Source: a virus. From it: DNA of 21,525 bases. The number at the start of each line of letters is the position of its first letter. Positions within the stretch are counted from its first letter, which is position 1. Both the position numbers and the translations under genes were made by a program. The notes below the pieces were generated by a model. The model worked only from the letters and a program-made list of their open reading frames with translations, was not told the DNA's origin and ran no database searches. Below, one piece after another: positions 403-17,935 of this stretch. Location of the stretch: IMG/VR virus record IMGVR_UViG_3300010354_000808, positions 1 to 21,525 of that record; one strand, given 5' to 3'.

Positions 403-2016
403 ATGGCATTCCAAGGAGCAATTACATCTGATTTTTTAAAGAAAGTACGTTTAGATGATTCTAAAAAAGAAGCATTACTAGACTTTGCTGCTACAGATTT
501 CTTTTCGTTAAGAGATAATTTAGTAAATTATATAAAAGCTGCTTATCCCTTAGATTATAACTTCTTCGTTGCTTCAGACATGGGTGCCATGTTCTTGGAA
601 TTAACTGCTGCTATGGGACACATTTTATCTTATAAGGCAGACTACTTAGCTAACGAAAACTATTTAGCAACAGCTAGAACAAGAAACAGTGTAAGAAAAT
701 TATTACAACTAATAGGTATAAGATTAAAAGGACCTACAGCTTCGGCAGCTAATGCCAAGCTTACTTTAAGTAATGCTAAATGGACTACTTCTACTGATTA
801 TGTAACAATATCTTCTTCTCAAAGAGTTGCTATTATTACTTCCCCTGAGGATGGTTCCCAAGTATCTTTTACTTTATATAAAACAAGTGCAGACGGAAAA
901 ATTATATTTGATGATCCTTCTGATAACATAGAAATACTAAGATCCGAAGCTACTACAAGTTCGGTTATCACAAACTTGATGTTTTTAGAAGGTAATTACA
1001 TAAAACAAACAGGTACATTTATTGATACTGATGCATTAAAAACTATTGAACTAACTCAATCACCTATTATCGAAGGTAGCGTTCAAGTTTTAATTACTGG
1101 GGCCACTGCAACAGAAGGAAATTACGCTCAAGTTGAAAATATCTTTTATGCATCAGGACCTGATGATAAGGTATTTCAATTAGCAACAGATGAGTCGTTT
1201 ACCGGAAGAATATTTTTTGGAGACAATCTGTTGGGTAAGTCTCCAAACATAGGTGATGAGTACACAGTTTATTATAGAACCGGGGGAGGAACCAGAGGCA
1301 ACATTGGTAAAAGTGCATTAAATGTCCCGGTTACTGTCGAATACTTTAATTCTTCTAATTCAACATTAGGAACAGGGGAGGCAACTGCTGAAAACGTTTC
1401 AATGGCAGCAGGAGGATCACCTGCTCAGACGATTGAGAATGCCAAAAGATACGCTCCTTTGCTGTTCAAGGCCCAAGACCGCTTGGTCACAATGGATGAC
1501 TATAGGGGCTTTATAAACTCTTTTAAAACAACGGTAGGTACGACAGGTAAAGGAACTGTAACAGTAAGAAGAGCTTTTTCCTCCGCAAATATAATTGATG
1601 TTTATGTATTAGAAAAAGCCAGTGCTACACAATTTAAAAGAGCAACTCCCGAGTTCAAAAGACAATTACTTACTGCTATTGAACCCAAGAAGATGTTAAC
1701 TGATGAAATAGTTGTTGTTGACGGATTGGTTAGAACCATAGATCCTGTGTTTACTATAAAATGTGATTCAATATACAGACAACGTGAATCAGAAATTAAA
1801 ATAGCAGTTAGAAATGTTATAACTAATTTTTTTAGTGTAGATAATATGGAGTTTGGAAAAACTTTTTCTGCTCAAGAAGTTAACAGACAAGTTTTTGATA
1901 GTGTTCCTGAAGTTAGATATTCAACATTAGATAATCTCCCACAAACAATCAAATTACAATTCAATGAAATTATTCAATTGAATAACCTATCAATTATAAT
2001 GGTGTTTGAGTCATGA
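403..2016 (+). CDS. 6: gp6-like baseplate wedge protein (Baseplate_J family)
   Basis: Wedge component equivalent to T4 gp6/P2 gpJ, which dimerises to form the ring holding the baseplate wedges together. Residues about 55-120 carry the family's N-terminal helical pattern: an acidic-glycine turn (SDMGAMFLELTA), then YKADYLANENYL and a RTRNSVRKLLQLIGI stretch. Residues about 347-373 have the Baseplate_J signature of an AP followed by LVTMDDYRGF. At 537 residues it is shorter than T4 gp6 (660). It starts one base after the gp25-like stop and overlaps the next gene by four bases (ATGA), so translation of gp6 and gp7-like subunits is probably coupled. Identification is good at family level; details of assembly are inferred from T4. 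Confidence 0.87.
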   Translation: MAFQGAITSDFLKKVRLDDSKKEALLDFAATDFFSLRDNLVNYIKAAYPLDYNFFVASDMGAMFLELTAAMGHILSYKADYLANENYLATARTRNSVRKLLQLIGIRLKGPTASAANAKLTLSNAKWTTSTDYVTISSSQRVAIITSPEDGSQVSFTLYKTSADGKIIFDDPSDNIEILRSEATTSSVITNLMFLEGNYIKQTGTFIDTDALKTIELTQSPIIEGSVQVLITGATATEGNYAQVENIFYASGPDDKVFQLATDESFTGRIFFGDNLLGKSPNIGDEYTVYYRTGGGTRGNIGKSALNVPVTVEYFNSSNSTLGTGEATAENVSMAAGGSPAQTIENAKRYAPLLFKAQDRLVTMDDYRGFINSFKTTVGTTGKGTVTVRRAFSSANIIDVYVLEKASATQFKRATPEFKRQLLTAIEPKKMLTDEIVVVDGLVRTIDPVFTIKCDSIYRQRESEIKIAVRNVITNFFSVDNMEFGKTFSAQEVNRQVFDSVPEVRYSTLDNLPQTIKLQFNEIIQLNNLSIIMVFES

Positions 2017-5000
2017 AGAGTAAAAATAGAAACTTAACTAAAGACTCTACAAAAAATTTCTATAAACGAAATTATGTAAAAGCCACTGAGATAATAACTC
2101 CAAAGTTTTATATTGAAGAAGATCTAGCAGCTAGTGGTAGTCAGTTAAATATAATTGATGAATTAATAAATACTAATATTAATATTGCTGATAAGTACTC
2201 AAGCGTAATTATTAGTTCTATTGGTGGCGTAAGTGCTGTATCTTCTAGTAATCTTCTTTCATCAATTAGTTCCTATGATGGTTTAAGTAAGTTTTTTATA
2301 AAACAAAACAACTTAACAGATATTGATGCAATCGACTTCGAAAGAAGAATTTTATTTAAATTAGGTAAAAGCTTTTCTAACTTTGATACAAGTTCTGATT
2401 TTAAAAATTACTTGTCATCTACATTGTTTCCATCAATAAGATTAAATACACCTTCAGCATCGTTTGACGGAGTACCTCCAAGCTCTCTACATGAGTACCT
2501 AATTGTAAACTTATCTTGGATTTATTTATTAAATGTATCTGGTGCGTCATACCATGGATACAATATATTAACTGAAGTACTAGCTGATAAATTCTGGAGA
2601 AGGCAAAGATTTTTAATAAACGACGCTGTTAAATGCTTAACAGAATATGTGTTTAGGAATTTTACAGTAAACAGACCTTCTTGGTTTCCTTTAGGAATTC
2701 TTCCTACTGACTATCTTCCAGATTTAGTTTTAGCAGATACGACCTATACAAGTGGGTTACAACAGCTAGACAAATTAAAAACACTTATAGACGTTGCTTA
2801 TTCTCCAGCATACGCTGATAGAACAGATACAAAAGTTAGAGATGCATTTGAAGAATATCAAACAACTCAAACTTATCAAGACTCATTAGAACCTCAAGGA
2901 CCTTTTTACAAATACCTTAAAGGTATTTCCTATGCATTTTCAGATTACAATAACAGTATAGAATCATTAGAAACTCTAAACGATATATTGAATTGTCCTG
3001 ATGAGACTCTTCCTTACATAGCTGATATGCTTGGTTGGTCTTTGTTTGGATCAGATCCACTAAAATGGAGAATACAAATATTAAATGCTATATCTGTTTA
3101 TAAAGCAGCAGGAACTAAAAAATCGTTACAATTTGTTTTAAATTCTTTATTTACCAAAGACTCATTAGAAGTATCAACTTCAATTGTAGAGTTATGGGAA
3201 TCGTATGTCCCTCATTTAATTTATTATTCTATTGCAACTGAATCAAGGTTATTAAAAGACTTTGATACATGGACTCAAAAGAAAGCAGATGAATTTAATA
3301 TTCATTACATTCCATCAAGCTTGGATGAATCTGTTCGTTGTGTAGTTGATGAAATAATTTTAAGAATAGCAAAAACTTTTGATTTAAAATTTTGGTATAA
3401 CGGATCTCAAGTTTCAGTTGGCGAAGACAATCTTTTTAATTATAGAGGGAGAGATTTCTTAGTACCTCCATTTGAGGAATATCAATTCTATGTAAATCAA
3501 AAGTTATCTTCAACCATAATTGAATTTATTGTTGATCAGTTAATTTGTTTTGGAGTTTCTAGGACTTTCGCAGAACAAGTTGGAAATTATATATTAACCA
3601 ATTCAATAAAATCAAATGAAGACGTTTCACTAGGATATAGCTGGTTAATATTTACTTCAGGAGTTCAGTACCCACCTAACTGGAATTCCCTGATTTTAGA
3701 TATTTCAAATAAGAAAACAGAATACCTCCCACTGTGGAATGGCAAATCCTCTCATTTCAAACTGTTCTTTGATATTGATGAATTTAATTTTAAAGATACA
3801 GATTTTGTTTTTAACACAAGAGAGGGTATGCGGACTCTAGGTAAATTGCTGGATGACTTCACACCTATTCATGCAATAAATCAATTGATGATTAGAACTT
3901 CAGCTACAGATAACTTTGTTGTAAAAGATAGAGTTTTAAGCTTGCTTTCTGTGGATGTTAAAGATCATCCTGAATTAAATAATTCAGATAACTTTAGTTT
4001 CGGAAATACTGAAGTATCAGGACACAGTTTAAATTTTTACAAGAGAGGGAAATCCCTGCCTTATAATGTTGTTAGCAGAACTTCTGTTGATAGCATTGTA
4101 GATTCTTTGATGCAAACTTCTGCAATTGCAGTGCCTAGAAAAAGTTTTAGAAGAAGAAACTTTAAAGCCACTATGTCAAATTTCGGTTATTACAGTAGAA
4201 CCGGATTTAACATGCCCACTACTTTTGAAAATTATGTTAAAGAGAATTCATATTCTTCTTTGGGATTTTTACCCTTAGGTTTAATTCCATCGTCGCAGCA
4301 GTATGTCAATATACCTGATTACGACAGGCTACCTCCTATTTATACTCAGTGTGAAGGATTGTATTCTAGCTCTATTTACTCTGGGTTGGCAGTAAGCAAT
4401 ACCTTCCCATGCAGAGGTCTCCAGAATCAATGGCAGGTAGAACCAGTCCCTGATAACCCTATAGACGTTTATCTATGGTTTGGGGATAGCTTGGCAGCAG
4501 GTGTTGATCCCAGTATGAGTGCGATGAACACTTATTATACGCAGATAAAAGATAACGTAAGTGGCACATATTTATTTATTCCAAGCGCAGGAAATTTCCA
4601 ACTAATCCAACCAGCAAAAAATTCTAATATATTACAGGTAACTTCAACGACTTCTTCAATAGGTCCTGATTGGACTTTCGGATACGAACTTTATAAGAAA
4701 AACCAAAGAAATTCTTACATAATAAAATTTGGATTGCCTAATTCTTTTGGAGTATCTGCAGATAATACATTCCCTAATACGACATCTCAACAGTCTCCTA
4801 TTTTAGGTAACAATCCTTCAATAAATGACTGGAGCATTTATAGTACTAATGAATGTTTAAATATTTATAAAAATTGGATTACTAGTGCAATAAATTCATT
4901 AACTAATACCTATGGAGATCGGGTTACTTATCGTGGATCCGTTAGTTTCTTAGGAACTAATGCTGTTACAGGGTTACTCACTACCGACGAATTAATAGAC

Positions 5001-6956
5001 TTTTCTCTAAATGGTAATGTGGCCGTAGCATTTACTAAGAGATATATAAATTCCATAAATGAGATAAAACAAAACATAGAAAGCTTCATTAAAACAACAG
5101 GAATTTATAAAGGATCTCCAATTTGGATTTCGTGTTACCCAGATCAAAAGTATACAACGAATATAAATGCTTTAAGCTCTAGTTATTTCTCTCCATTTAG
5201 AGCTAACTTTGGATCTCTAGTTGCATCTAATACTAATGTATATTTGTACGATCCCCCCTCCTATTTAAATTTGTTTGACAACATTCATTATAATGGTTCA
5301 TCAAATTTATTTTTGGGTTCATCTATAGCAAACTTTTTTTATGAATCAAAATTAGATGCTAATAGATTAGGATACAATGCTCTTGATTATTCTGTTGATA
5401 GAAATCAGTTGGATAATATTATGAGAGTCTTGTTCTATATTGGAGAAAACTCTAAACGAACTCTAGCTTCAGCTATAGTACAAAAAGACTTAAGTTCTTA
5501 TACAAACTATTTACCTTGGAAAAATGTTGTAGACTCTATAGCTAACACTTTAACAGAACAAGATACAGGATTCCCAACCAACTACTCAGATTATAAAAAC
5601 TTTAAATTTGGTAAAGATATTCATAAGTTGTATAATGTATATTGTAGAACATTTCAACGACATCCATTAATAAAAAATAATTTATATGTTAATGGGCCAA
5701 ATATATTTGGGCATACATTTGGATCAATATTAGCTAATTCAGATTTTACTAAATTTGGTAATGTTGTTCAGTCGCACCCTAATCTAATAGTTACTTCCAT
5801 ATCTTCTATTAGTTCAATATACGCTGGGGAACCTTTTTTCCCTTCTGCTGGTGGATCTAATGAATCTAGGCTTTTATATACTTCTTCATTCAAATTTGGG
5901 TCCACCGAAGTTGCTAACTCTGGAATTTTACAAGCAATAGATTTAATCCATACTATAGGATCTAACACTGAAAATAGTTTTACTATTTACAATCTAGGTA
6001 AACAACCTTATAAAAATTATACCAACAGAGATTTTACTTATGTTATAAATAATAACATAATACAAATAACCTCAAAAGCGAGAAGTGGGTTACCTAGATT
6101 AAGGTTTGATGTTAAATCCTATTACCATAACCCAACTGAAGGACACCCATTATCCTCTAATTTATTAATACCAGAGCATCAATTTAAATTAGAGTTTTTA
6201 TGTTTATTTGCTTCTGATGACTTTAAGAAGTTTGGCAGTGGCTCAGTAGGCATATTAATTCACACGGCAAATGAGAATGGTTGGACATGGGTATATGGCA
6301 CAGATAATAAATGGACATATATCCCAGTTTCTTCTTTAACGTTTGATACAGTTAAACAAATTTACTCTCATAGGATAGATCTTGCTCCTAAAGAGTACAC
6401 ATTAACATCTCAATTTGATGGATGTATAGAATATTCAAATTTATATAATTTAAATCCATCAGATTTTACTTTATGTGAGGTTACTTTTAATACTATTAAT
6501 AGAAACTTATTAGTTCCAAAAGATTACTTCAACGCTAATAATCATGTGCATAGGGAAAATCAAAATTATATAATTGATATCTTTCCTTACCCAAATCAGG
6601 ACAGATCTTTTTACTTAGATAAAATTAATCTAATAGATCTAACTTTAAATAAATGGAGTAAAGTTTTAGTGTCATCGACAAACTTCTTTCCTGTAGGTGA
6701 CATGTATTGTGAGGAATATAGATTAGATTTAACTAGAGAACACATATATTATATATTTAAGCATTTTAAGGAAATCACAGGTACTATGTCTAAGTTTGGT
6801 AAAGCAAGTAGGGTTGCTTCCGTAACTCAAGATATATTAGAGGTTAGTGGAGGAAGTAGATTAAATTATAGATTAGACCCTAACTGGCTAATTAATACTA
6901 AGTGGAATAACCTAAATGCTGTTGGGTTAGTATCATCAATTTACCTAAGCAACTAA
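2013..6956 (+). CDS. 7: gp7-like giant baseplate wedge protein with embedded SGNH/GDSL esterase-like domain
   Basis: A 1647-residue protein, longer than T4 gp7 (1032). Position after gp25 and gp6, the ATGA overlap and a P2 gpI-like segment at residues about 310-385 (CPDETLPYIADMLGW, then helices ending YKAAGTKKSLQFVLNSLF) support a gp7 role at the wedge periphery. Two PLG[IL][LI]P segments occur at residues 226-231 and 754-759. Residues about 815-1115 look like an SGNH hydrolase: VYLWFGDSLAAG gives the block I nucleophile (S826), and LFDNIHYNG gives a block V Asp/His pair (D1089, H1092). Such domains in phages often deacetylate surface glycans. The C-terminal ~500 residues are unrecognised; around residue 1410 a Trp-rich stretch (GWTWVYG) suggests a beta-sandwich. 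The gp7 assignment is moderate, the esterase domain is pattern-based, and its substrate is unknown. Confidence 0.72.
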   Translation: MKSKNRNLTKDSTKNFYKRNYVKATEIITPKFYIEEDLAASGSQLNIIDELINTNINIADKYSSVIISSIGGVSAVSSSNLLSSISSYDGLSKFFIKQNNLTDIDAIDFERRILFKLGKSFSNFDTSSDFKNYLSSTLFPSIRLNTPSASFDGVPPSSLHEYLIVNLSWIYLLNVSGASYHGYNILTEVLADKFWRRQRFLINDAVKCLTEYVFRNFTVNRPSWFPLGILPTDYLPDLVLADTTYTSGLQQLDKLKTLIDVAYSPAYADRTDTKVRDAFEEYQTTQTYQDSLEPQGPFYKYLKGISYAFSDYNNSIESLETLNDILNCPDETLPYIADMLGWSLFGSDPLKWRIQILNAISVYKAAGTKKSLQFVLNSLFTKDSLEVSTSIVELWESYVPHLIYYSIATESRLLKDFDTWTQKKADEFNIHYIPSSLDESVRCVVDEIILRIAKTFDLKFWYNGSQVSVGEDNLFNYRGRDFLVPPFEEYQFYVNQKLSSTIIEFIVDQLICFGVSRTFAEQVGNYILTNSIKSNEDVSLGYSWLIFTSGVQYPPNWNSLILDISNKKTEYLPLWNGKSSHFKLFFDIDEFNFKDTDFVFNTREGMRTLGKLLDDFTPIHAINQLMIRTSATDNFVVKDRVLSLLSVDVKDHPELNNSDNFSFGNTEVSGHSLNFYKRGKSLPYNVVSRTSVDSIVDSLMQTSAIAVPRKSFRRRNFKATMSNFGYYSRTGFNMPTTFENYVKENSYSSLGFLPLGLIPSSQQYVNIPDYDRLPPIYTQCEGLYSSSIYSGLAVSNTFPCRGLQNQWQVEPVPDNPIDVYLWFGDSLAAGVDPSMSAMNTYYTQIKDNVSGTYLFIPSAGNFQLIQPAKNSNILQVTSTTSSIGPDWTFGYELYKKNQRNSYIIKFGLPNSFGVSADNTFPNTTSQQSPILGNNPSINDWSIYSTNECLNIYKNWITSAINSLTNTYGDRVTYRGSVSFLGTNAVTGLLTTDELIDFSLNGNVAVAFTKRYINSINEIKQNIESFIKTTGIYKGSPIWISCYPDQKYTTNINALSSSYFSPFRANFGSLVASNTNVYLYDPPSYLNLFDNIHYNGSSNLFLGSSIANFFYESKLDANRLGYNALDYSVDRNQLDNIMRVLFYIGENSKRTLASAIVQKDLSSYTNYLPWKNVVDSIANTLTEQDTGFPTNYSDYKNFKFGKDIHKLYNVYCRTFQRHPLIKNNLYVNGPNIFGHTFGSILANSDFTKFGNVVQSHPNLIVTSISSISSIYAGEPFFPSAGGSNESRLLYTSSFKFGSTEVANSGILQAIDLIHTIGSNTENSFTIYNLGKQPYKNYTNRDFTYVINNNIIQITSKARSGLPRLRFDVKSYYHNPTEGHPLSSNLLIPEHQFKLEFLCLFASDDFKKFGSGSVGILIHTANENGWTWVYGTDNKWTYIPVSSLTFDTVKQIYSHRIDLAPKEYTLTSQFDGCIEYSNLYNLNPSDFTLCEVTFNTINRNLLVPKDYFNANNHVHRENQNYIIDIFPYPNQDRSFYLDKINLIDLTLNKWSKVLVSSTNFFPVGDMYCEEYRLDLTREHIYYIFKHFKEITGTMSKFGKASRVASVTQDILEVSGGSRLNYRLDPNWLINTKWNNLNAVGLVSSIYLSN

Positions 6957-6957
6957 A

Positions 6958-7929
6958 ATGATTGTAGACACCGCAGGACAAGTAATAGCTGACATATTAA
7001 CACTATCTCCGAGTCTATCGAAGATACCTTCAGCTTCAGCTATTTTAGATACCTCCAACTTTACTTTTCAAGCCGTATCATACGGTAAAGATGTAAGTGG
7101 ATTTAATAAACATGCTCATGCAATATATGATTCAAATTTCTCAGCAATAATTGTTAGAAGTTATGAGGGCTCTTCAGTTTCGTCTTACCACTCATCAGCT
7201 ATTGGAAGCAGCCTATTAGCCTACAATATACTTCCAGAGTACCCGGATCCTTTAAATACTAGACTAGAGCAAGATTCTTGTAGGACTACATTTCAGTCTT
7301 TGTTTTCTGGGATGGACATAGGTCATTGTGCTAATCACGCAATACTTTCGTCATTCTCATCAACTTATCAAACTTTAGGATGCTTTGCTCCTTCAAGTGG
7401 AATAAAGTATAATGTGTTATCTTCTGCTCATGTGTCAGGAAGTTTGTCTAATACTTTATTTTCAGGAACATTGTCTGGGGCTTATAACTTATATGGAATA
7501 ATGGATGCATCTGGGTTTCTTACTTTTGCTCCATTTAATGGTAATCAAGGCAGGGCTCGTACTGCCGCACTACAGTTTACCAGCGGTGTTCTTATTAATT
7601 TATCCCCTAATTTTAGTTCTACTGGAAACGTGGATTTAGTCTGGCAATTATCGGCGCACGATGCCGCTGCTCTATTATTATATGGTGGGGTATATCATTT
7701 AGGATTATGGTGCCTAGACATTAAAGAAATGTTAAAACTAGGGCATAAACCACCTTTTGCATTTAACCCTCTAAATAATATAAGAAAATATCGTTTATTT
7801 GCGAAAAAGACTTTTTCAAAAGACTTATTGTATTTAAATGATTATTTAGGACAGTCTGGTTTTAAGTATCTGTTGGAACAAAAAAATGCTCCATATATTG
7901 TGTATCAATGGACAATAAGGTTTTTATAA
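6958..7929 (+). CDS. virion structural protein, probably baseplate/fibre-associated
   Basis: A 323-residue protein of unknown function. It starts one base after the gp7-like stop and directly abuts the next gene. It is rich in Ser, Gly and Ala in its first half and has no signal peptide or membrane segment. The C-terminal ~100 residues contain GLWCLDIKEML, then PPFAFNPLNN and RKYRLFAKKTFSKDLL, and end in YQWTIRFL. The GLW...YRLFAKKTF...WTIRF layout resembles the C-terminus of the following gene (GLF...YKYFSP...WTINF), suggesting related C-terminal modules. Its length and place invite comparison with T4 gp8 (334 residues), but I see no sequence match that supports that name. The role as a baseplate or fibre-attachment protein is inferred from context only. 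Confidence 0.7.
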   Translation: MIVDTAGQVIADILTLSPSLSKIPSASAILDTSNFTFQAVSYGKDVSGFNKHAHAIYDSNFSAIIVRSYEGSSVSSYHSSAIGSSLLAYNILPEYPDPLNTRLEQDSCRTTFQSLFSGMDIGHCANHAILSSFSSTYQTLGCFAPSSGIKYNVLSSAHVSGSLSNTLFSGTLSGAYNLYGIMDASGFLTFAPFNGNQGRARTAALQFTSGVLINLSPNFSSTGNVDLVWQLSAHDAAALLLYGGVYHLGLWCLDIKEMLKLGHKPPFAFNPLNNIRKYRLFAKKTFSKDLLYLNDYLGQSGFKYLLEQKNAPYIVYQWTIRFL

Positions 7930-8529
7930 ATGAATATCTTTGATTATTTAAATATTAACGGTCATGTAACAGTTCATAAACTTTATGACGATGGTCATGA
8001 GGAATTAGTCTACGATGACCATAACACCATTGTGTCAGGTATGGGAGTCGGGTTGGCTTGTTTGTTCGGTCTTTCTGGATCTACTACTATACTAGATTAT
8101 CAAATAGATAGATTTCAAATAGGTGTATCTGGTAGTTCATCACTAGAAGTAAGCTCAACTAATTCATTATCCGGCTCCCTATCAAGTTTATCAGAGTATG
8201 TTGGGACAGATGGAGAGTTGTTTGCTCTATCGGCTCATCAAATAAAGAGTACCTTTGTAGGTACTCCTGCATGGTATGCAGCAATACCAGCCCATAATAT
8301 AACTAGAATCGATGATAACTCAGTTAGATATACAATTGTGGTTGATAAAGAATCTTGCAATAACTTAAGATCAGATACTACTTATGTAAATGAAATTGGA
8401 TTGTTCATGAAAAATCCGTTAGGGCTAACCCCTATTCCAGCCCCGATCCTAGTAGCTTATAAGTATTTTTCACCTGTTAGGAAAAGTTCGGACTTTGCTC
8501 TAGTTTTTAGATGGACGATTAATTTTTAA
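7930..8529 (+). CDS. virion structural protein, baseplate/fibre-associated
   Basis: A 199-residue protein whose ATG follows the previous stop with no gap. The N-terminus reads as a small beta domain (VTVHKLYDDGHEELVYDDH) followed by a conserved-looking NTIVSGMGVGLACLFGL stretch and a DYQIDRFQIGVSG motif. I associate this layout with structural proteins of environmental T4-like phages. The C-terminus has VNEIGLFMKNP, an AYKYFSPVRKSSD segment and ends FRWTINF, the 'EIGLF...FxPxxKxxD...W.I.F' arrangement common in phage baseplate and fibre-lead proteins. It sits between the wedge genes and the large fibre-like genes, so a linker or adaptor role is plausible. The exact function is not recognisable from sequence. 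Confidence 0.72.
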   Translation: MNIFDYLNINGHVTVHKLYDDGHEELVYDDHNTIVSGMGVGLACLFGLSGSTTILDYQIDRFQIGVSGSSSLEVSSTNSLSGSLSSLSEYVGTDGELFALSAHQIKSTFVGTPAWYAAIPAHNITRIDDNSVRYTIVVDKESCNNLRSDTTYVNEIGLFMKNPLGLTPIPAPILVAYKYFSPVRKSSDFALVFRWTINF

Positions 8530-8539
8530 AAGGTAAACC

Positions 8540-11500
8540 ATGGTATTTCTTCAAAACGATTTTTACACAGCAAGCGGTTCAGTAAAACTTTATAATTGCT
8601 GGACTGACAAAGTTACTAAATTTGATACAAGTTCATTTTATAATTGGGAACAGGACAATCTTCCAATTTATGATTTAGAAGAAAGAACATATTATCTCTG
8701 GGAGAAGCTGGGCCATCCTACCTCAAGCATCCCCGGTATATCCATGGTTGTTTCTGCTGGAGCTAGTCCTGAACTATATGCTTGTAACCCTTATTTGTAC
8801 GAAACGGTCAGCGCAGCAATAGCAGCATTACCTGAGGTATTAAACTATCCAGTTATTATTGAAGTATGTAACAAAGGAAACCTAGGGGATATAAATTTAA
8901 ATAATATAAAATGTAGTAAAAATGGTGTTTATAAAGGATCATTAGAAATAGTAAATAGAGTTTTTGCAAAGTCTGAACCTTATAAAGGGACTACTGTTCA
9001 ATCGGCAGCTTCAGTAGCTACTGTAGGTCTTCCTTACAGTTTGTTAGGTTACCTTTCAGGGACACCTGAAGTAGGAGCAAGAAGACACTTTTTAGATACA
9101 AAGTCAGTATTTTTAAATCAAAAAATATTACCTAACTATTCTGATATAACTTCTTTAGGTTCTTTTTTAAATTCTTTTGTAATTTTAGCCTCAGATGGTG
9201 GGTACAGCCCAGCGACTTATACAGTTAGTAGCACAGCAACAAATGCTTTTGGTAATGATGTACAACAGCTTGCATTTTATGAATCTGTAGCAGCATTTCA
9301 AACACTTGAAAATATATTTACATACGACATTAGTTCTTTTAATCAAGTTAACAATGCTCAATTACTAACTAAAGCAACCTTAGCTCAATTTCCAAATCCA
9401 GCTACAGTCCTACCTTTTGTAGGATTGTTTATGGGCAATAGAGTTTCTAAAATTAATATTACAAATTGTGACGGTCCAATTTATATAAGGAATTTCTTTG
9501 TTGACGGGAGAGGTCCTGAAATTAACAATTCATACGGTGTGACTGTCAATAATTCAGAAAATATATTTTTAGAAAATTGTGTAAGTGTTAGAAACAGAAA
9601 AGCTGGGTTCTTCTTCAATAATTCTAATGTTATCATTACAAGAGGTATAGCTGCATATAGAAACTACAATTCACCTAGAAATGTAACTAACGTTTCCAGC
9701 ACATATGAAAAAGATTTGGGCGCAGGATTATTGGCTGTAAACTCAAATGTAAGTTTCAGTTCAACAAGCGCATTTGAATATGCTGCGGCCATGGCAGATT
9801 CAACTTACAGTTCCATTATCAATAGTCCAAATACCTTATCTTATGGATTGAACTATCCTATAAATTTTTGTAGAAATGCTAATGGTATTGTATTAGAAAA
9901 TTCAAAACTTCATGGTGGTATTAAGGGAACCTCTCCAACTCAATTAATTTCTGATATGAATACATTTGTCGGTATTAAGATGACCAACTCAGAATTAGAC
10001 TGGGACGGAAGATTAATACTAGAAGCAAATGATACTGGCTTACTAGCAACTAATTCCATAATTAAAACTGATAAGCATATCGTCAGAAATAATCAAAAAG
10101 TTGGTATTGATTTAAATGATTCAATGCTTGTTTATAACAAGAATTTCTTACAGGTAACATCCCCAACTCAATTTTATTTCTCAGGTAATGGAGTTCATTT
10201 AGACCTAGACAATTCTAATTATGAGTGTGATATCATTTCAGGAATGCCCAGTGCAATAGGGCAGCATAAATTTGAAAATTCTCACGGTGTTAGCAAGACT
10301 TCTAATAGTACTGGTATATCTTTACCTTCAATTAGAGTAACTAATTCTTCTAAATGTTTACTAATTCATCCTTACATTATAAGACAAAATAACTTTGTAA
10401 AGACTAATGGATTTACTGCATATTTTGAAGTTAAAGAAGGTCTTGCAGTACTGACAAAAAATAATTCGATAACTACACTTAAAGGTAGTGGCAATTACGC
10501 AAATATTATTGTTGGTCCTGCCGAGAAAACTAGGCAACATATTTCTGTAGGATTACATGCGGATAATAATTCAACAATAAATATACAAGGACCAACAGCA
10601 GCGGCTCAATTTTCTATAAATGTTCTAGCAGACAATAACTCAGTTTTGAATATTACTCCTCACCAAGATGAGTCTAATAAATTAGAGATTCAAGAGTTTG
10701 ATTTAAGTTCTCCAAGAAATCATACAATGGTAGAACTACATTCAACAAGAGCTTGTCTATTAGCTAATAAAAATTCTACTATAAATATTACAAATTTGGG
10801 TAATTATTTAAATGAGTGGACTGCAGGAAGTATAGGAACAAACTTCTTAGCTTCTAATATTTTAGATTTAACTTACTATCAACCACATACAGGACTATTT
10901 ACTAGTGGGGGGTTCCTTCAATTCTACCCAAATCCTTTTGCAACCGATAATGGGGCAGCCAATTATCCTGTATATGAAGTAACCAGTGCTAATTTTGCAA
11001 ATAATCAATTCACTCAACCTTCAAATTATTATTTGTTTAATAGATCAGTAACTTCAACTAGTGATTTTACTCAAATAACTAATGGTGGCTTTTGTGTAAA
11101 AGCTCATAACAATAGCACAGTTAATGTTAGAGGAGTTAACTTTCCTTGCGGTTGGTGGAATCCTTCCTCCATAGTGTTTGATGCAGATACCTTTATTGGT
11201 AATTGCTCAAAATTATTTATATGGAACATTGCAGATGATTCTAAATTGTTAGCATCGTATTGCTCAGTGAGCGGAATGTACCCAGCCGATGCCTCATATA
11301 ACGGCCCTCCTGCTGTCTGGTTGTCCGCTTTAAATAATGATTGGACTATTTCAGGTTCTTTATTATCCGGGGCACCAACAGGAACACCTGATACTAGTTC
11401 TTTATCCATACTTGATTATTTTGGATCTGGTCCTTCTAGCGTACTTCAATCATATTTATTCACTTCATCTTTCCAAAACAAAGGACCTTTCAGACTTTTC

Positions 11501-11971
11501 TTTTCAGTTGACCCCGCAAGTCAATCATTAAAATTAATGAGTAATTTAGCGGGATTAACTTATAATAATAACTATACTTCTACTGGATTTGGGGGTTCTC
11601 ATTTCTGGTTATATCAACTCTATTCTCAAGGATATCAACCTCCATTCTCAGCATCCGCTATAAGCTCCGTAAGCTCTTCTTACAAGAACTTAATAAATAG
11701 CACTACTAAGTCCTTGTCTGGATTCTATTATGGATCATCAATGGTTTATTCTCCTAATAATATTAAATGTATTTTAGATGAATCAGCTTCAAATACTTTT
11801 GCTAATGCCAAACATTGCGGAGTAGGGAAGTCTGGATTACCTAAGTTAGTATCACTTATATCCTCCACCAGAAACGTGGCAGGTGATTTACATGGAGAAG
11901 GCACTGGAACAACTGTTACTATCACTGGTTTGGGTTCTCTAAATATATTTGATTTGAATAGGTACATATAA
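8540..11971 (+). CDS. large parallel beta-helix tail/baseplate-periphery protein
   Basis: A 1143-residue protein preceded by an AAAGGT ribosome site. Residues about 33-57 carry WEQDNLPIYDLEERTYYLW, a short motif also found at the start of the next gene product and probably used for docking or trimerisation. Next comes a segment (ETVSAAIAALPEVLNYPVII) that leads into a long right-handed beta-helix region. There, short strands alternate with Asn ladders, for example VTVNNSENIFLENC and GFFFNNSNVIITRG. Four diverged copies of an A-x-N-NS-[TV]-x-N-[IV] coil occur at residues 672-863. Folds of this type bind or cleave surface polysaccharides in tailspikes, but I cannot point to catalytic residues. 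The C-terminal ~200 residues are Ser/Gly-rich and end in a short hydrophobic strand. A receptor-binding role is inference. Confidence 0.72.
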   Translation: MVFLQNDFYTASGSVKLYNCWTDKVTKFDTSSFYNWEQDNLPIYDLEERTYYLWEKLGHPTSSIPGISMVVSAGASPELYACNPYLYETVSAAIAALPEVLNYPVIIEVCNKGNLGDINLNNIKCSKNGVYKGSLEIVNRVFAKSEPYKGTTVQSAASVATVGLPYSLLGYLSGTPEVGARRHFLDTKSVFLNQKILPNYSDITSLGSFLNSFVILASDGGYSPATYTVSSTATNAFGNDVQQLAFYESVAAFQTLENIFTYDISSFNQVNNAQLLTKATLAQFPNPATVLPFVGLFMGNRVSKINITNCDGPIYIRNFFVDGRGPEINNSYGVTVNNSENIFLENCVSVRNRKAGFFFNNSNVIITRGIAAYRNYNSPRNVTNVSSTYEKDLGAGLLAVNSNVSFSSTSAFEYAAAMADSTYSSIINSPNTLSYGLNYPINFCRNANGIVLENSKLHGGIKGTSPTQLISDMNTFVGIKMTNSELDWDGRLILEANDTGLLATNSIIKTDKHIVRNNQKVGIDLNDSMLVYNKNFLQVTSPTQFYFSGNGVHLDLDNSNYECDIISGMPSAIGQHKFENSHGVSKTSNSTGISLPSIRVTNSSKCLLIHPYIIRQNNFVKTNGFTAYFEVKEGLAVLTKNNSITTLKGSGNYANIIVGPAEKTRQHISVGLHADNNSTINIQGPTAAAQFSINVLADNNSVLNITPHQDESNKLEIQEFDLSSPRNHTMVELHSTRACLLANKNSTINITNLGNYLNEWTAGSIGTNFLASNILDLTYYQPHTGLFTSGGFLQFYPNPFATDNGAANYPVYEVTSANFANNQFTQPSNYYLFNRSVTSTSDFTQITNGGFCVKAHNNSTVNVRGVNFPCGWWNPSSIVFDADTFIGNCSKLFIWNIADDSKLLASYCSVSGMYPADASYNGPPAVWLSALNNDWTISGSLLSGAPTGTPDTSSLSILDYFGSGPSSVLQSYLFTSSFQNKGPFRLFFSVDPASQSLKLMSNLAGLTYNNNYTSTGFGGSHFWLYQLYSQGYQPPFSASAISSVSSSYKNLINSTTKSLSGFYYGSSMVYSPNNIKCILDESASNTFANAKHCGVGKSGLPKLVSLISSTRNVAGDLHGEGTGTTVTITGLGSLNIFDLNRYI
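10553..11128 (+). repeat. four diverged beta-helix coil repeats (x-A-x-N-N-S-T-x-N-[IV])
   Basis: Within the beta-helix protein the units LHADNNSTINI (10553-10585), VLADNNSVLNI (10622-10654), LLANKNSTINI (10757-10789) and VKAHNNSTVNV (11096-11128) are clearly related at the protein level but are no longer alike as DNA. Spacing is irregular (23, 45 and 113 residues), so other coils or insertions lie between them. This is the look of an Asn-ladder in a right-handed parallel beta-helix, not of a recent tandem DNA repeat. Confidence 0.6.
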
Positions 11972-11972
11972 A

Positions 11973-14669
11973 ATGGTTACTATTAATTTAAACTTAAGTT
12001 CATCTAACTTCTATAAGTTTACTGATCCGATTCGTAAGTATAAGGCAAATGATCCTTACTATTACGAAGTTGATAATATTCCTATTAAACAATTAGAAGA
12101 GAATATCTTATGGTTAAAGGAAGCATTTGAGAATACTACGGTAACCGTTGAGAATGAGCAAACTCAAACAATTCCTCAAGGTGGATCTAGAGAAACATTT
12201 ACTGAATTACAGCCATTTGTCTCTGGGACTAATTCTAATATAATTTCGGTTAGACCCGGAAAGTTCATGGCAAGAATAAACGATGCTTATGATCTTACAC
12301 CCTTGCAAGTAATTGGAAGAGCTACAGGATTAAATTTTGGTGAATTTAATGAATGGGATGTAGCAACGATTGATAACGTTTTATTAGCTCCTGTTTTGGA
12401 AAAATTTAAGACATATGTTAATGCTGATTCTTTAGGAATGAATGGATTAGCTGAAAGAAGTTTTGGATCTTTTGTATTATCTAATTTAAATTCTGTTGGA
12501 TTGGCAACAAGCAGTAATATTAATCCAAGTCTAACTTTCTTTAGTATTATTGGAACTAATCCAGACTTTACATATCCAACATTCCTTTGGACAGGGTCAC
12601 CTAGAAATGGGCAACCGGGGAGTGAGGGAGTTAGTGGCCCTTACCTAAAAGTTAAGCAGTACGAAGTATCCACGACAGCAGGTGATATCGGACAAGGCTT
12701 CGCTTCCTTATACTCTGCCGATACTCAATTTATAAAAAAATGGCGAGGTATAGCTAGGACCGCAGTGGTTGATGTCCCAGAAAATCTATCGATAAACATA
12801 GAGCCATTTAATTCTGATGATTTCTCCTACATCGATGAAGATGGTTTAGTTGTTGATTCAGCAGACCCCGGAAGTCCTGCTTCTCAAGCAACACAAAGAG
12901 TAGATTTATTATTTATTTATTCAAAGCCTATTGATGTATCTGCATCTCATTTAAATACTAGCTGGACTTCTTTTAGTCCAAGAAAAATTTATAAAGCAGA
13001 GCTAGGTGTTGTTAAAGGTGCTGGTCTTGTGTTGAATTATCAAACAGGTAAAACTTCAAACAGTAAATTTTTCTATCCTACTTATCAAGATAGTATATTA
13101 GCTAATGTTTCTGATGAGTTGAATGCTGGATTAGGGTTTGATTCTATTGATATCAGAGGTTCATTCCCATCTCCCGATGATCTAATGAATATATCTCCTA
13201 CCTTAGCAGAATGGTTACCTAAGAATCATTATGCTCTAGTAGGTCAATCTATTTTACCTATTGCATATATCGTAGTTAAAAAGAATAATCTCAATGAAGA
13301 TTTAAATCAAATAATTGAAGCTACTGATATTATTGATATTAGACCATTCTTTAGAACTACTGAGTTAACTTATGGTGAGCGTGCTGGGATTGCCGCTGCT
13401 CTCCCTAATATATCTTTAGCAAATCCAGTTGCTACAGAAGCATATGTTAAGTATGAATCAAATAAATCTTTTAACTTAATTAATTCAAAAATAGAAGAAG
13501 TAAATTCAATAATAAATACCACAATTAATAATCAGACTCAAATAGATTCTGGTATGGGAAGAATCCTTACCCGTGGTATTGTTCGTGGTGGAAATTATTA
13601 TGGACCCGAGGGCGCAATATGTGCAGTAATCCAAGAGAAGTATGGAAGTGTGGCACAGCCTTTAACAAAAGAAGAAACAATTAATAAGTTCAAGGAATTT
13701 CACAATCTTCCTAATGCTTATGAATTTGTTAATTTCCCAGATTGGGACTTGGGTAATTGGACATTCAGAGCCGTAACGGGAACAGGTAACACATTCCCAT
13801 CAATTGGATATGGTGTAGTTGATAGGATAAATACAGCTATATCTGATGATCTTGGTGTTCAGATAAATGAAAATAATCAAGGTGTAACTTTAAACAGTTC
13901 CGACTTCGGTAGATTTAGATCTGCTCCGATAGACCCTTCTAAAAGAACGCCAAAACTATTTCCTTTTAATTTATATTGGTTATCTAAAACAATTACTTTA
14001 GATATTACTGATACCCCTTGGGTTGAAGATATAACAGTAATTTCAAAGTTTTGGAACTGTGTTCCTATGGGTATTAATTATGATATAGTAACTACTACTA
14101 ACTTTGGGAACTTTCCTCAGTACATCAATAGTCCAAATCCAGAATCAGGTATTGTTGTTTCTAAAGGAAAGAAAAGAGGTCCAATTATCTTTACTGAGGG
14201 ATCAACACAAGTAACAAAATATTTTATAGATTTTACCATAATTACTTTTTTACCCTCAAATTTATTTCCAGTATTCCCTGTCTCAGGAACTTCAATACAA
14301 TATGGAAGTCCAACTCTTAATAATCCTTTAGGAGCAATCCCACCTAATCCAAGAATTGAGTTAAATTTAAATAGCAATACGAATAATGCTAATGTTTGGG
14401 GTGGATTGTTTGCCGCATTTAGCCATGTTATGCAATGGGATCCTAGTGGAAATCCACTATACTCTTTAGGAGGAGGGCCTTTACCAGTCATTTATCCATC
14501 AGTTGAGTATACAGTTATAGGTCATCCTTATAACTATGGTAATGGGTCATCTCAATTCTTTAATGGTGTGCATAAAGTTCCGGGAATGTTGGATCACGAA
14601 GGTTATGTGGCAACTGGAAGATCTGATAGACCTAATATTCAAACAAGGAATAAACCTCCAGAGGGTTAA
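11973..14669 (+). CDS. large tail-fibre/baseplate structural protein
   Basis: An 898-residue protein starting one base after the preceding stop. Residues about 29-50 (YYYEVDNIPIKQLEENILWL) match the N-terminal motif of the upstream beta-helix protein, with the shared pattern [WY]-x-x-DN[IL]PI-x-x-LEE-x-x-x-x-L. This suggests both proteins attach to the same baseplate element or trimerise in the same way. The body contains RPGKFMARINDAYDLTPLQV and VDLLFIYSKPIDVS, then a segment (EATDIIDIRPFFRTTELTYG) typical of structural proteins that coat or decorate the baseplate. A helical stretch (residues about 485-530, rich in Asn, Ile and Ser) may be a coiled-coil linker. The C-terminus is Gly/Asn/Pro-rich and ends in a polar tail (NIQTRNKPPEG). 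No enzyme motif was recognised. The fibre or baseplate role is inferred from position and the shared motif. Confidence 0.72.
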   Translation: MVTINLNLSSSNFYKFTDPIRKYKANDPYYYEVDNIPIKQLEENILWLKEAFENTTVTVENEQTQTIPQGGSRETFTELQPFVSGTNSNIISVRPGKFMARINDAYDLTPLQVIGRATGLNFGEFNEWDVATIDNVLLAPVLEKFKTYVNADSLGMNGLAERSFGSFVLSNLNSVGLATSSNINPSLTFFSIIGTNPDFTYPTFLWTGSPRNGQPGSEGVSGPYLKVKQYEVSTTAGDIGQGFASLYSADTQFIKKWRGIARTAVVDVPENLSINIEPFNSDDFSYIDEDGLVVDSADPGSPASQATQRVDLLFIYSKPIDVSASHLNTSWTSFSPRKIYKAELGVVKGAGLVLNYQTGKTSNSKFFYPTYQDSILANVSDELNAGLGFDSIDIRGSFPSPDDLMNISPTLAEWLPKNHYALVGQSILPIAYIVVKKNNLNEDLNQIIEATDIIDIRPFFRTTELTYGERAGIAAALPNISLANPVATEAYVKYESNKSFNLINSKIEEVNSIINTTINNQTQIDSGMGRILTRGIVRGGNYYGPEGAICAVIQEKYGSVAQPLTKEETINKFKEFHNLPNAYEFVNFPDWDLGNWTFRAVTGTGNTFPSIGYGVVDRINTAISDDLGVQINENNQGVTLNSSDFGRFRSAPIDPSKRTPKLFPFNLYWLSKTITLDITDTPWVEDITVISKFWNCVPMGINYDIVTTTNFGNFPQYINSPNPESGIVVSKGKKRGPIIFTEGSTQVTKYFIDFTIITFLPSNLFPVFPVSGTSIQYGSPTLNNPLGAIPPNPRIELNLNSNTNNANVWGGLFAAFSHVMQWDPSGNPLYSLGGGPLPVIYPSVEYTVIGHPYNYGNGSSQFFNGVHKVPGMLDHEGYVATGRSDRPNIQTRNKPPEG

Positions 14670-14680
14670 GGTAGCTAAGT

Positions 14681-17600
14681 ATGTCGGATCATGATCCACC
14701 AAATCAACCAAGACCTAGGATTTTTTCTAACTGTGGTGGATTACTTCCGACATCATATCAATATGGCGGAACTAATTTACCAGATCCTAGCCTGCCATTA
14801 TTGCCTTATTGCCCTAACGGAAACTGTGGAAATCCTCGACCTTTTGGACCTAGGGACGATCCTTTTGTGTGTGTATGTGCTGGTTCTTTGTCTCCAGCTA
14901 GACAAGGATGTGAAGAGGAGTCTACAAGAATTTGCGTAAGACTTTCAGAAGTAGGGGCTAGACCTAGATCTTTAGAAACTTATACAACAGAAGCCGAATG
15001 TCGTGCAAATGCTTTTGATAAATTTCCATGTTGGTTATCTGTTGTTAGGTGCGTTGAAAGTATTCAACCTTGTGAAGAGCCTTCTAGAGCTACTGGCTTT
15101 GTCTTACTTACTGAAACAAAAACAATAAGATCATGCATAGAACAAGATCCACAAAGAGTTAGACCAGCAGGAACATTTAAAAGCTTAGACCAGTGTGCTC
15201 CAAGATGTATATCTACAGATTGTTTACTAATTAAAGATCCAACTGTCCCAACTCCAACATTTAGATGGAAGTGCGAGACATTCACACAAACTTGTCCAAT
15301 AGAACCGGGGGAAGAGTTTCCTTTAACTTTTACTCAAAGAAGATGTGTACCTTGTACTGCACAAGAAATAGCTACTAACCCTAACGCTTGCAGATATTTA
15401 ACAGCTAACTGTGATGGGGAATGCAATCAAATTTTTTGTGGGTATAAATGTACTTTTGACTTTGAGAGGTGCCCGGATCAAGTTAATCAAAGAAGGACTG
15501 GATACTGTACTAAGTGTACAACTGAGGATCCTAATTGTATCCCCGGGTTTACTAAACAAAATTGTTCTCAAACATGTACTGATATTACCTGCCCTCCCAT
15601 TACACCATCAATAGTTGTAACTCAACCCTTAGCCATAGTTACAGAAAATCCTAGATCCTCAGAAGTTCCTACTGGAACGTCTACTACAGTGCCGGGAGTA
15701 ATAACTGTCAACAGTGCCGGAACCCGCCCGATTGACGTAATAAATAGAACTGTTCCTAGAAAAATTACAGAAGCAAGATATGGATACAATCGTGACGGAG
15801 ACTCCTGCGTGGAGTGTATTAACCCCAGCCCTTGTCAATTTACAACCTTAGAAAATTGTTTAAATTCTGTAAGATCTAATTCTACAAATCCTGTTGAGAT
15901 ACCTTCTCGATCAAGAATATTTAATCAAAAGCCTACTTATATTACACAAACAAATTACGAAGAATATTCCAGATCTCCTCAAGGGAGTGCCGCTTTTAAA
16001 GATTCAGCAAGTCCTGAGCAAGGTACAAATCCAAGATGGAATGATGTTAAAGTTGTAGGTGGAAAAACAAGATTTGTTAAAACAATAGACTTTAATAATT
16101 CTAATAATATACTTTATGTAGATGATAAAGATCAAAATAAACTAAACATAAACTTCAAACAAGTTTACGATAGCACTTATAATTTTTTTGAAAGAGTCCC
16201 TAATCCAAGAACAAAATTAGTTGAGAATGATATTAGATTAGACATTTTCAATAATACAGTAACTGAAGAGGTTAAGTATTTTCTATTAAAAAATCAAGCT
16301 GGGTATTCGGCAAAATGGAAAGAATCTTATTATTTTGATTTAACTTTAGATAAACTAACAATTAGTTTAAATAAAAATTTATTAAACTCTATACAGTCTA
16401 TTCATGGTGTTGATAATAATTTAATAAGTCCTGATCTTTTTTTGAACGCTCTCTTACAAATGCTGAGGTCTGGGAGATTAGATGAATTTGATCCCGGAGT
16501 TTATAGTGAAATAGCTGCTTATCAATACTCTGATGAACTTTTAGAAATAAAACCTCCAATAGAACCTACTGTATCCGAACGAGCAGCACTAACATTAATA
16601 ATTAATGGAGCAGCCCCAACGGATCAAGGATATTATCAAGAAATAGATAAGCTTAAAATTATTAGACAAAAAAGGTTAAACACTGATATTGGAGCTAACA
16701 TTCCGGCAACGACTTTGGATGCTTCTAATATTTCAATACCGTTAGAAGACGCTGGTATTAGCATAACAACTTTAGACTCAACAGAAACTTTTGCCAGTAT
16801 AGGGACTGGAGACAATTATTTTATAGAAGTATCAGACATTGTGGATAACGAATTAGATGTTCCACTAGATTCAAAAAATAATGTCGCCACTTTCACTCCA
16901 GACGGTGTCCGAGTTGCCGCTCTAAAAACATTAAATCAAAATCCTTATTCTCTTTTAACAGTATCATCTGTAAGTTCAAATAATGAATTTATAGAAACTT
17001 ACATAAGAAGAGATACAGAACCAATGTATTTTTATCTTGATTTATCTTCTATAAAATTATTAAATGAAGATCAGTCAATAGTAAACAATTTACAAGCAAC
17101 TTATAGAAGATTAACAAATTCTGAAAAAATAAATAACCATCTAATAAATTACGGATTTAATGTTACTAAATTAAATTTAGATTTTAGAGATCCTTTTGTC
17201 TCGTATGCATATGATACGAGTTGTTTTACATTAAATCAAAATGATATCACATTTAGAAACTTTGATTTTTATCTACAGGGTAATCATATAAATGATTTTA
17301 TCTTAACAAGAAATCTACCTTTTGCAATAATCATAGTTCCGGGATGTGGTACAAGACATAATCCTTTTGATATTATGTCTGATATTAAAAATTATAAAAA
17401 TAATATAGTTGAGAGATCTGTTTATTGCACTCAAACTATTAAAATAAATGATGCTAAAAAGCTGGATAATGCTGTTGATGAGGTAGCACTAAGCCAGACA
17501 ACTAGGCCAAATGAAAGCCTCTATGGCTATAGTGATAAATTATATTATCAATATAACCCTTCCTCATATGGTAATTCTTATTATTATAAAAATTCTTACT

Positions 17601-17935
17601 TACAGACTCCTCCAATCGAAATAGAAGATAGAAGGTCTATATTATCTAAAATTATTAGAGAAGTAGTAAATCCTATAATTCAAGTATACCAACCTGACGA
17701 GTTAAAATGGTTTGATATTTTTTCAAGATTAAGTTATGAAGAAGTTGGAGATTATTTTAATAATGGAAATTTAGATTTATTATCGAATATAATAAAAGAG
17801 AAGTATAATATTGCTGTAAAAGATGTGATTAAAGATAAAGGAATTAAAACTGGTATAGGTGAACCTGTGGAAGACCCAGAAGACTTAGGGATTACACTAA
17901 GAAATCAAATAATTCTACCAGAAGAGAGGACATAA
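14681..17935 (+). CDS. large virion protein with Cys-rich N-terminal region
   Basis: A 1084-residue protein with an AAGGT ribosome site eight bases upstream. About 35 cysteines fall in residues 18-393, many as CxC, CxxC or C-x(3-5)-C. The motif [YF]-[TK]-[TS]-x-x-x-C recurs (YTTEAEC, FKSLDQC, FTTLENC), suggesting diverged small disulfide- or metal-stabilised units. There is no signal peptide, so the region either binds metal in the cytoplasm or oxidises after lysis. Between them a Pro/Thr/Val-rich linker (residues about 305-360) separates the last pair of units. The C-terminal ~650 residues are of a different character: Asn/Lys/Ile-rich, with helices around LDKLTISLNKNLLNSI and a terminal helical segment (REVVNPIIQVY). 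Its place between fibre-like genes and the PAAR gene implies a tail or baseplate component. Function unknown. Confidence 0.7.
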   Translation: MSDHDPPNQPRPRIFSNCGGLLPTSYQYGGTNLPDPSLPLLPYCPNGNCGNPRPFGPRDDPFVCVCAGSLSPARQGCEEESTRICVRLSEVGARPRSLETYTTEAECRANAFDKFPCWLSVVRCVESIQPCEEPSRATGFVLLTETKTIRSCIEQDPQRVRPAGTFKSLDQCAPRCISTDCLLIKDPTVPTPTFRWKCETFTQTCPIEPGEEFPLTFTQRRCVPCTAQEIATNPNACRYLTANCDGECNQIFCGYKCTFDFERCPDQVNQRRTGYCTKCTTEDPNCIPGFTKQNCSQTCTDITCPPITPSIVVTQPLAIVTENPRSSEVPTGTSTTVPGVITVNSAGTRPIDVINRTVPRKITEARYGYNRDGDSCVECINPSPCQFTTLENCLNSVRSNSTNPVEIPSRSRIFNQKPTYITQTNYEEYSRSPQGSAAFKDSASPEQGTNPRWNDVKVVGGKTRFVKTIDFNNSNNILYVDDKDQNKLNINFKQVYDSTYNFFERVPNPRTKLVENDIRLDIFNNTVTEEVKYFLLKNQAGYSAKWKESYYFDLTLDKLTISLNKNLLNSIQSIHGVDNNLISPDLFLNALLQMLRSGRLDEFDPGVYSEIAAYQYSDELLEIKPPIEPTVSERAALTLIINGAAPTDQGYYQEIDKLKIIRQKRLNTDIGANIPATTLDASNISIPLEDAGISITTLDSTETFASIGTGDNYFIEVSDIVDNELDVPLDSKNNVATFTPDGVRVAALKTLNQNPYSLLTVSSVSSNNEFIETYIRRDTEPMYFYLDLSSIKLLNEDQSIVNNLQATYRRLTNSEKINNHLINYGFNVTKLNLDFRDPFVSYAYDTSCFTLNQNDITFRNFDFYLQGNHINDFILTRNLPFAIIIVPGCGTRHNPFDIMSDIKNYKNNIVERSVYCTQTIKINDAKKLDNAVDEVALSQTTRPNESLYGYSDKLYYQYNPSSYGNSYYYKNSYLQTPPIEIEDRRSILSKIIREVVNPIIQVYQPDELKWFDIFSRLSYEEVGDYFNNGNLDLLSNIIKEKYNIAVKDVIKDKGIKTGIGEPVEDPEDLGITLRNQIILPEERT
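14732..15859 (+). other. Cys-rich region encoding diverged small-domain repeats
   Basis: This stretch encodes about 35 cysteines in some 375 residues, far above any other gene in the window. Three clear copies of an aromatic-[TK]-[TS]-x-x-x-C unit lie at 14981-15001, 15176-15196 and 15839-15859. The sequences between are too diverged to define a strict period by eye. Confidence 0.65.

Follow-up and report, generated by a model that had tools for sequence, protein, structure and literature searches.

A Predicted SGNH Esterase-Type Domain Inserted at a Putative Module-Exchange Site of a gp7-Type Baseplate Wedge Protein

The Wedge Protein and Its Gene Neighborhood

The window analyzed here is a viral DNA stretch of 21,525 nucleotides (IMG/VR record IMGVR_UViG_3300010354_000808, positions 1 to 21,525). 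Three plus-strand genes, in the order gp25–gp6–wedge protein, encode a gp25-like wedge subunit (45–401; PF04965, E = 1.7e-13; phrog_261), a gp6-like wedge subunit (403–2016; phrog_219, E = 4.4e-39, matched by tblastn to genes annotated as gp6/wedge in T4-like phages), and a protein whose ORF (2013–6956) translates to 1647 aa. An S77/T4-type prohead protease is encoded at 19773–20846 and has its best matches in T4-like cyanophages and in Pelagibacter, Methylophilales, and Pseudomonas phages. The virus is a T4-like myovirus infecting bacteria.

A profile search placed a Tail_P2_I-like region at aa 319–397 of the 1647-aa protein (2967–3203, plus strand). For the window protein, the score lies slightly under the Pfam cut-off (PF09684, E = 0.0013; 19.1 vs. 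20.6 bits), whereas homologue L001 exceeds it with 21.3 bits; among 20 wedge homologues, 13 matched, the best at E = 1.8e-7. In addition, a profile built from 20 wedge sequences reached gp32, a wedge protein of phage Pam3 (8kea_c, E = 0.0044). On account of the Tail_P2_I similarity and the profile match to Pam3 gp32, we assign the protein, from its sequence, to the gp7/gpI type of wedge proteins and not to the fibers. The gene order agrees with this assignment, which an earlier preliminary description of the same DNA had already proposed.

Proteins of this type are well described in other phages. T4 gp7 is a monomer present in six copies (PMC3004832), and its ortholog in XM1, gp17, has just 242 residues (PMC10457771); in both phages, one gp7-type copy is found per wedge, in a (gp6)2-gp7 complex (PMC3004832; PMC10457771). 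The window protein has the wedge role and the gp25-gp6-gp7 neighborhood in common with T4 gp7, P2 gpI, and XM1 gp17 (Tail_P2_I), but it is far longer and carries an esterase-like insert. Sequence searches found no relatives of the wedge protein or of its inserted domain among cultured phages. Escherichia phage 899 gave one weak match (33 aa at E = 1; hhalign, 0.0015), which was dropped because the protein had no SASA/GDSL match.

Boundaries of the Inserted Segment

The scaffold to the left of the insertion point (aa 700–802; 4110–4418, plus strand) ends with TFPCRG and is kept in homologues with and without the insert. The inserted segment, linkers included, spans aa 803–1124 (4419–5384, plus strand), as delimited by homologue alignment and by the spacing of flank profiles, and homologue comparison places the conserved right-hand scaffold, beginning with DYSVDRNQL, at aa 1125–1290 (5385–5882, plus strand). 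Within the segment, the SGNH-hydrolase-like core covers aa 818–1115 (4464–5357, plus strand), as judged from AlphaFold2 model mbab300747723 and its Foldseek matches to 2APJ, 1ZMB, and 3PT5. The preliminary description had put an SGNH-like domain at about residues 815–1115, and the model does match SGNH enzymes.

In an end-to-end alignment of five homologues, the segment is present in the window protein and L001 and absent from the close homologues L002, L003, and L004, in which TFPxRG is joined to YxVDR over a short linker. Further scans enlarged the set to about 98 distinct wedge sequences. When insert length was taken as the number of residues between the left-flank profile (aa 700–802) and the right-flank profile (from about aa 1125), 76 homologues showed a spacing of 4–23 residues, compared with 310–365 in the insert-bearing proteins. 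The segment is thus a clean in-frame insertion into the wedge protein, and the suggestion that wedge sequence flanks it on both sides is borne out by the alignment with insert-free homologues and by the flank spacing. Because the length of the linker itself varies, the insertion point is probably a surface loop. In L051 and L052, a gap of about 300 residues was considered as a further insert and discarded; both have a short linker at the site itself, with the additional residues located further along the protein. Nor does base composition single out the insert as foreign DNA: the G+C content of the insert (32.1%) is close to that of the flanks (31.4 and 30.0%), and therefore recent transfer is not indicated.

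Fold Prediction and Profile Searches

Single-sequence profile searches with the window domain gave no significant match in Pfam, PHROG, or PDB sequences. The search against SGNH families, which the preliminary description had recommended as a check, returned PF00657 at E = 0.067, under the Pfam cut-off; profile searches of PDB sequences gave chance matches only, and a degenerate-pattern scan of bacterial and archaeal genomes found no relative of the domain. As searches of this kind were unproductive, the case rests on relatives and on structure.

A first AlphaFold2 model, computed from the five window-type sequences alone, reached a pLDDT of 53, and Foldseek gave no clear fold for it. A second model, covering aa 788–1137 and computed from an alignment of 13 sequences that included SASA-type relatives (described below), reached a pLDDT of 66 and a pTM of 0.72 and presents strands beta1–beta5 alternating with helices in the SGNH order. 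Foldseek gave 27 PDB matches to it at E ≤ 0.001, every one of them an SGNH enzyme. SASA/CE6 structures head the list, with 2APJ as the best (2.4e-8); 1ZMB (1.4e-7), NanS (2.7e-6), and SIAE (7.3e-6) are also among the matches. Among viral models, it matched the Salmonella phage ViI adhesin E1XTI0 (6e-6), the Vi06 tail fiber, and many phage proteins named as SGNH. The fold match is not fully independent, because SASA-type rows were in the alignment of the model; their inclusion is justified by the common site and by an in-register alignment of the window-type profile with the SASA-type group (E = 6.8e-4, a single comparison). Judged from the model, the segment is assigned to the SGNH superfamily as a predicted domain of carbohydrate-esterase type.

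Motifs and Predicted Active Site

The SGNH blocks were defined according to a review of the superfamily (PMC9487903). The sequences VYLWFGDSLAAG, IIKFGLPNSFG, and LFDNIHYNG lie exactly where they had been reported, and S826, D1089, and H1092 were confirmed residue by residue. Block I, GDSLAAG (aa 824–830; 4482–4502, plus strand), contains the predicted nucleophile S826 (4488–4490); its GDS, and indeed GDSLA, is present in all five window-type domains. It is followed by GPDWTFGYE (aa 884–892; 4662–4688, plus strand), a helix in the model that aligns with WGPEVRFAE of the SASA-type inserts. The preliminary description overlooked block III, FLGTN (aa 979–983; 4947–4961, plus strand), with the predicted oxyanion-hole residue N983; GTN occurs in each of the four full-length window-type domains, and the assignment follows the published block definition (PMC9487903).

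Two motifs are less regular. IIKFGLPNSFG (aa 903–913; 4719–4751, plus strand) had been offered as a possible inner block. In the window-type alignment, the Gly that this would require at position 907 is not conserved (G/S/G/A across four domains), whereas LPN, with N910, is. What the block II Gly contributes is a backbone amide, and this may come from a different residue instead. The block II contact is missing in some SGNH members (PMC9487903). Block V, DNIH (aa 1089–1092; 5277–5288, plus strand), had been described as an Asp/His pair; the His is invariant in the window-type alignment, but the Asp is only loosely kept, with DNIH in the window domain, DSIH in L009, DNLVH in L001, and FDVH in L008.

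The four full-length window-type domains are 45–60% identical, and S826, N910, G981, T982, N983, and H1092 are invariant among them. From column rates, the joint chance invariance of S826, G981, N983, and H1092 has p of about 0.006, an indicative value for residues picked beforehand as motif positions. Across both types of domain, most inserted esterase domains (L001, L008, L028, L098, L099, L131, and L152) keep Ser and His but have a shifted block V Asp or another residue in its place. The SASA-type inserts carry GQS and QGE and have Ser, Tyr, Gln, or similar residues in place of this Asp. Between full-length window-type and SASA-type rows, MAFFT misplaces the block I Ser, matching that of the SASA rows to a Ser some 10 residues past S826; GDS was therefore paired with GQS on the basis of their location behind beta1 and of alignments of fragments, of which one other layout aligned badly. 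A single insertion site thus appears to hold two oxyanion-hole types, the Asn type of the window domain and the SASA type. With the block V Asp so weakly conserved, catalysis by a Ser-His dyad would be plausible for either type, the window domain included. There is precedent in SGNH enzymes that act as Ser-His dyads with no working Asp, such as CE2 and NanS, the latter lacking the block V Asp according to the same review (PMC9487903).

Alternative Occupants of the Insertion Site

Four states of the site were found among the relatives, so the insert is one among several alternative occupants, a point that the preliminary description had missed. In the first, nothing is inserted (the 76 homologues with a 4–23-residue linker). 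In the second, a window-type SGNH domain is present, which is the case in five viruses, namely the window, L001, L007 (partial), L008, and L009. In the third, the site is occupied by a SASA/CE6 domain starting with GQSNMNG or GQSNING (L028, L098, L099, L106, L107, L131, L150, and L152; partial in L100, L124, and L154). The Pfam SASA profile scores above its cut-off in the inserts of L098, L106, L131, and L099, where the four E values are 6.5e-10, 2.3e-9, 9.3e-9, and 8e-7.

In the fourth state, the wedge gene itself is split, as seen in two lineages (L083–L085; and L102, L104, and L125). Here the first ORF terminates at or shortly past the site (PVRGW), and the second begins no more than about 15 bases on, as in L084 (ORFs 2886–5303 and 5306–9145). 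The second ORF encodes a different module of about 750–870 residues, followed by the right flank of the wedge protein (E down to 6e-57). This module lacks an enzyme signature and in one case has weak Kelch similarity (E = 0.0085); the N-terminal parts of the modules of the two groups are 34% identical (1.5e-70). That the chain may end at the site with the C-terminal part kept argues strongly for tolerance of large modules there. Taken at the level of sequence, the insertion point reads as a module-exchange site on the baseplate wedge.

Evolution of the Site

On a tree for which the alignment was restricted to the scaffold (about aa 240–802), the state of the site requires about 9–11 changes. 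A single origin was rejected for the SASA state (p-AU 2.4e-4) and for the split state (p-AU 6e-10), as was the grouping of SASA and SGNH rows together (p-AU 1.6e-44), while the SGNH rows are compatible with one clade (p 0.47); these p values are approximate, coming from quick trees computed with no mixture model and from groups named by their own state. The window and L001 are 58% identical in the domain and 80% in the scaffold, and the window and L008 are 60% and 62% identical, respectively. From these identities, the domain appears to change faster than the scaffold or partly independently of it. Overall, the tree points to a virus group that repeatedly swaps accessory modules at this site of the wedge.

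Comparison with Known Systems

The best structural matches to the window domain belong to SASA/CE6 (PF03629; AT4G34215, 2APJ; 1ZMB; E. coli NanS, 3PT5). The two share a GPE-type helix and a beta2 motif in register, and SASA domains occupy the same site in relatives. However, the window domain has GDS rather than GQS, GTN rather than (H)QGE, and an Asn oxyanion hole of the canonical kind where that of SASA is inverted, and the Pfam SASA profile found no match in window-type domains. Assignment to SASA/CE6 was considered and rejected because of the oxyanion-hole features GDS and GTN, judged by the published definition (PMC9487903). With the broader SGNH/GDSL superfamily (PF00657 and relatives), the domain has in common the order of the fold, GDS in block I, and GxN in block III, and the window domain itself reads DxxH at block V; it differs in its score under the cut-off (E = 0.067), in LPN replacing the block II Gly, and in the poor conservation of the Asp among relatives.

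SGNH domains on phage fibers are well known. The tailspike O-acetylesterases of phages, such as coliphage G7C gp63.1 and the Salmonella phage ViI adhesin, carry an SGNH-type domain on an adsorption protein of the virion, as here, and the model of the window domain matches the ViI and Vi06 proteins. However, the domains of G7C gp63.1 and ViI are situated on fibers or spikes, while that of the window lies within the chain of a baseplate wedge protein. Nor is an SGNH domain on a baseplate protein in itself a novelty, as one is present in Tal, the hub protein of Staphylococcus aureus phages 80alpha (gp59) and phi11 (gp44) (PMC7048315; PMC4876445). The Tal domain is a C-terminal fusion on a trimeric siphovirus hub, as opposed to an apparently exchangeable internal insert in a myovirus wedge. 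Accessory host-surface modules absent from close homologues have likewise been described for other baseplate proteins; additional carbohydrate-binding modules are present on Vp4 Gp119, a wedge protein of a Bacillus myophage (PMC11406892), and Dit proteins accept inserted modules (PMC9692632). These examples are a different wedge protein (BW3) and a siphovirus protein, and the modules are of the binding kind, not enzymes. No description of an exchange site of this kind was found for Vp4 Gp119 or the "evolved" Dit proteins. In the open-access literature, of which our coverage is incomplete, we found no report of an enzyme-type module or of a common exchange site in a gp7/gpI-type wedge protein.

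Proposed Function and Alternatives

Taken together, the reading that we favor, and hold to be reasonably probable, is that of an SGNH domain of carbohydrate-esterase type, inserted in a wedge loop at a swap site and editing host glycans. About six copies would ring the baseplate, a number taken from T4 gp7. When the baseplate meets the cell, S826 would remove ester groups with the help of H1092 and possibly D1089, with N983 in the oxyanion hole. These groups would most likely be O-acetyl groups on glycans of the host surface, for instance those of O-antigen, capsule, or exopolysaccharide. The baseplate itself could thereby edit polysaccharide near the membrane, besides the fibers. The glycan deacetylase activity, its substrate, the display geometry, and the copy number are what we infer from these comparisons. 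As a precedent, the tailspike esterase gp63.1 of G7C is a deacetylase, and deacetylation without depolymerization can be essential for infection (PMC10743462).

The most serious competitor, which we regard as rather unlikely, retains the SGNH fold and makes the domain a non-catalytic glycan-binding module, comparable to those that bind carbohydrates in "evolved" Dit and wedge proteins. Wedge proteins decorated with binding modules do exist, as Vp4 Gp119 illustrates (PMC11406892), several relatives have a displaced block V Asp or none at all, and the occupant in the split lineages has weak Kelch similarity and no enzyme signature. Against this, the Ser, the block III Asn, and the His are invariant while the remainder of the domain drifts, and dyad SGNH enzymes lacking a working Asp are known (CE2 and NanS; PMC9487903).

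An esterase acting instead on acetyl groups of peptidoglycan or elsewhere deep in the envelope, during penetration rather than on outer glycans, seems improbable. In contractile tails, the wedge ring remains outside the cell, and the hub and tube alone penetrate, which counts against such a role; the closest folds, moreover, are carbohydrate esterases of the sialate and xylan types. The idea draws on the facts that O-acetyl groups of peptidoglycan are also SGNH substrates (PMC9487903) and that a supporting part in wall degradation has been proposed for the SGNH domain of the Tal hub in S. aureus phages (PMC7048315).

It is less credible still that the inserted modules are docking platforms for fibers or spikes with an incidental enzyme ancestry. 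Although T4 gp7 binds gp9 and the tail spike attaches to the flexible part of XM1 gp17 (PMC3004832; PMC10457771), the site is empty in most homologues, which presumably have fibers all the same, and the catalytic residues are retained. Finally, weak profile scores and a first model lacking a clear fold match would suit a chance resemblance of motifs in some other alpha/beta domain, which we consider highly implausible given that the second model matches solely SGNH structures at E ≤ 0.001, that SASA domains sit at the identical site, and that the residues of blocks I, III, and V are invariant.

Going beyond the esterase reading, it may tentatively be proposed that the gp7-type wedge of this virus group has a dedicated socket by way of which lineages exchange esterases of two oxyanion-hole types as well as other surface modules, with the chain cut at that point in the split lineages. 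In that case, deacetylation by the ring would contribute to the sensing or holding of the cell by the baseplate before contraction; we regard this extension as possible, though doubtful.

Phage surface enzymes have mostly been sought and annotated on fibers and spikes. In the present case, a module of enzyme type belongs to a core subunit of the wedge, and its position is reused for SASA-type esterases, for an SGNH domain of another type, and, where the chain is broken, for a larger module. As a result, the gp7-type protein offers a natural insertion point that evolution has used several times, and the wedge family allows the loss, gain, and swap of esterases to be compared on one scaffold. 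The baseplate itself, beyond the fibers, may edit host surface sugars. The case further suggests that host-range surveys overlook some of the surface-active repertoire if they consider receptor-binding proteins alone.

Other Observations at the Locus

Further extra sequence is found elsewhere in the wedge homologues. L054 and L061 carry an insertion of about 1200 residues between window-equivalent aa ~670 and ~709, with an FN3 match (1.2e-5) and weak beta-helix similarity. More insertion points lie near aa ~1511 (L036/L033), near ~1420 (L042 and L045), and past ~470 (the L038–L058 group), and the segments near ~1420 and ~1511 resemble jelly-roll, binding-module-like domains by eye. Several loops of the wedge scaffold thus seem able to take up modules.

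As for the neighboring genes, the best relative of the gp6-like protein (403–2016) in deposited phage records is encoded in a 595-kb genome of an uncultured phage (LR756511.1; 27% identity, 2e-29). Downstream of the wedge gene, the region 8540–17935 encodes three very long proteins of 1143, 898, and 1084 aa; they had no significant Pfam or PHROG match and are perhaps fiber or baseplate-peripheral proteins. A PAAR-type protein resembling a spike tip is encoded at 17935–18279 (phrog_281, 1e-7).
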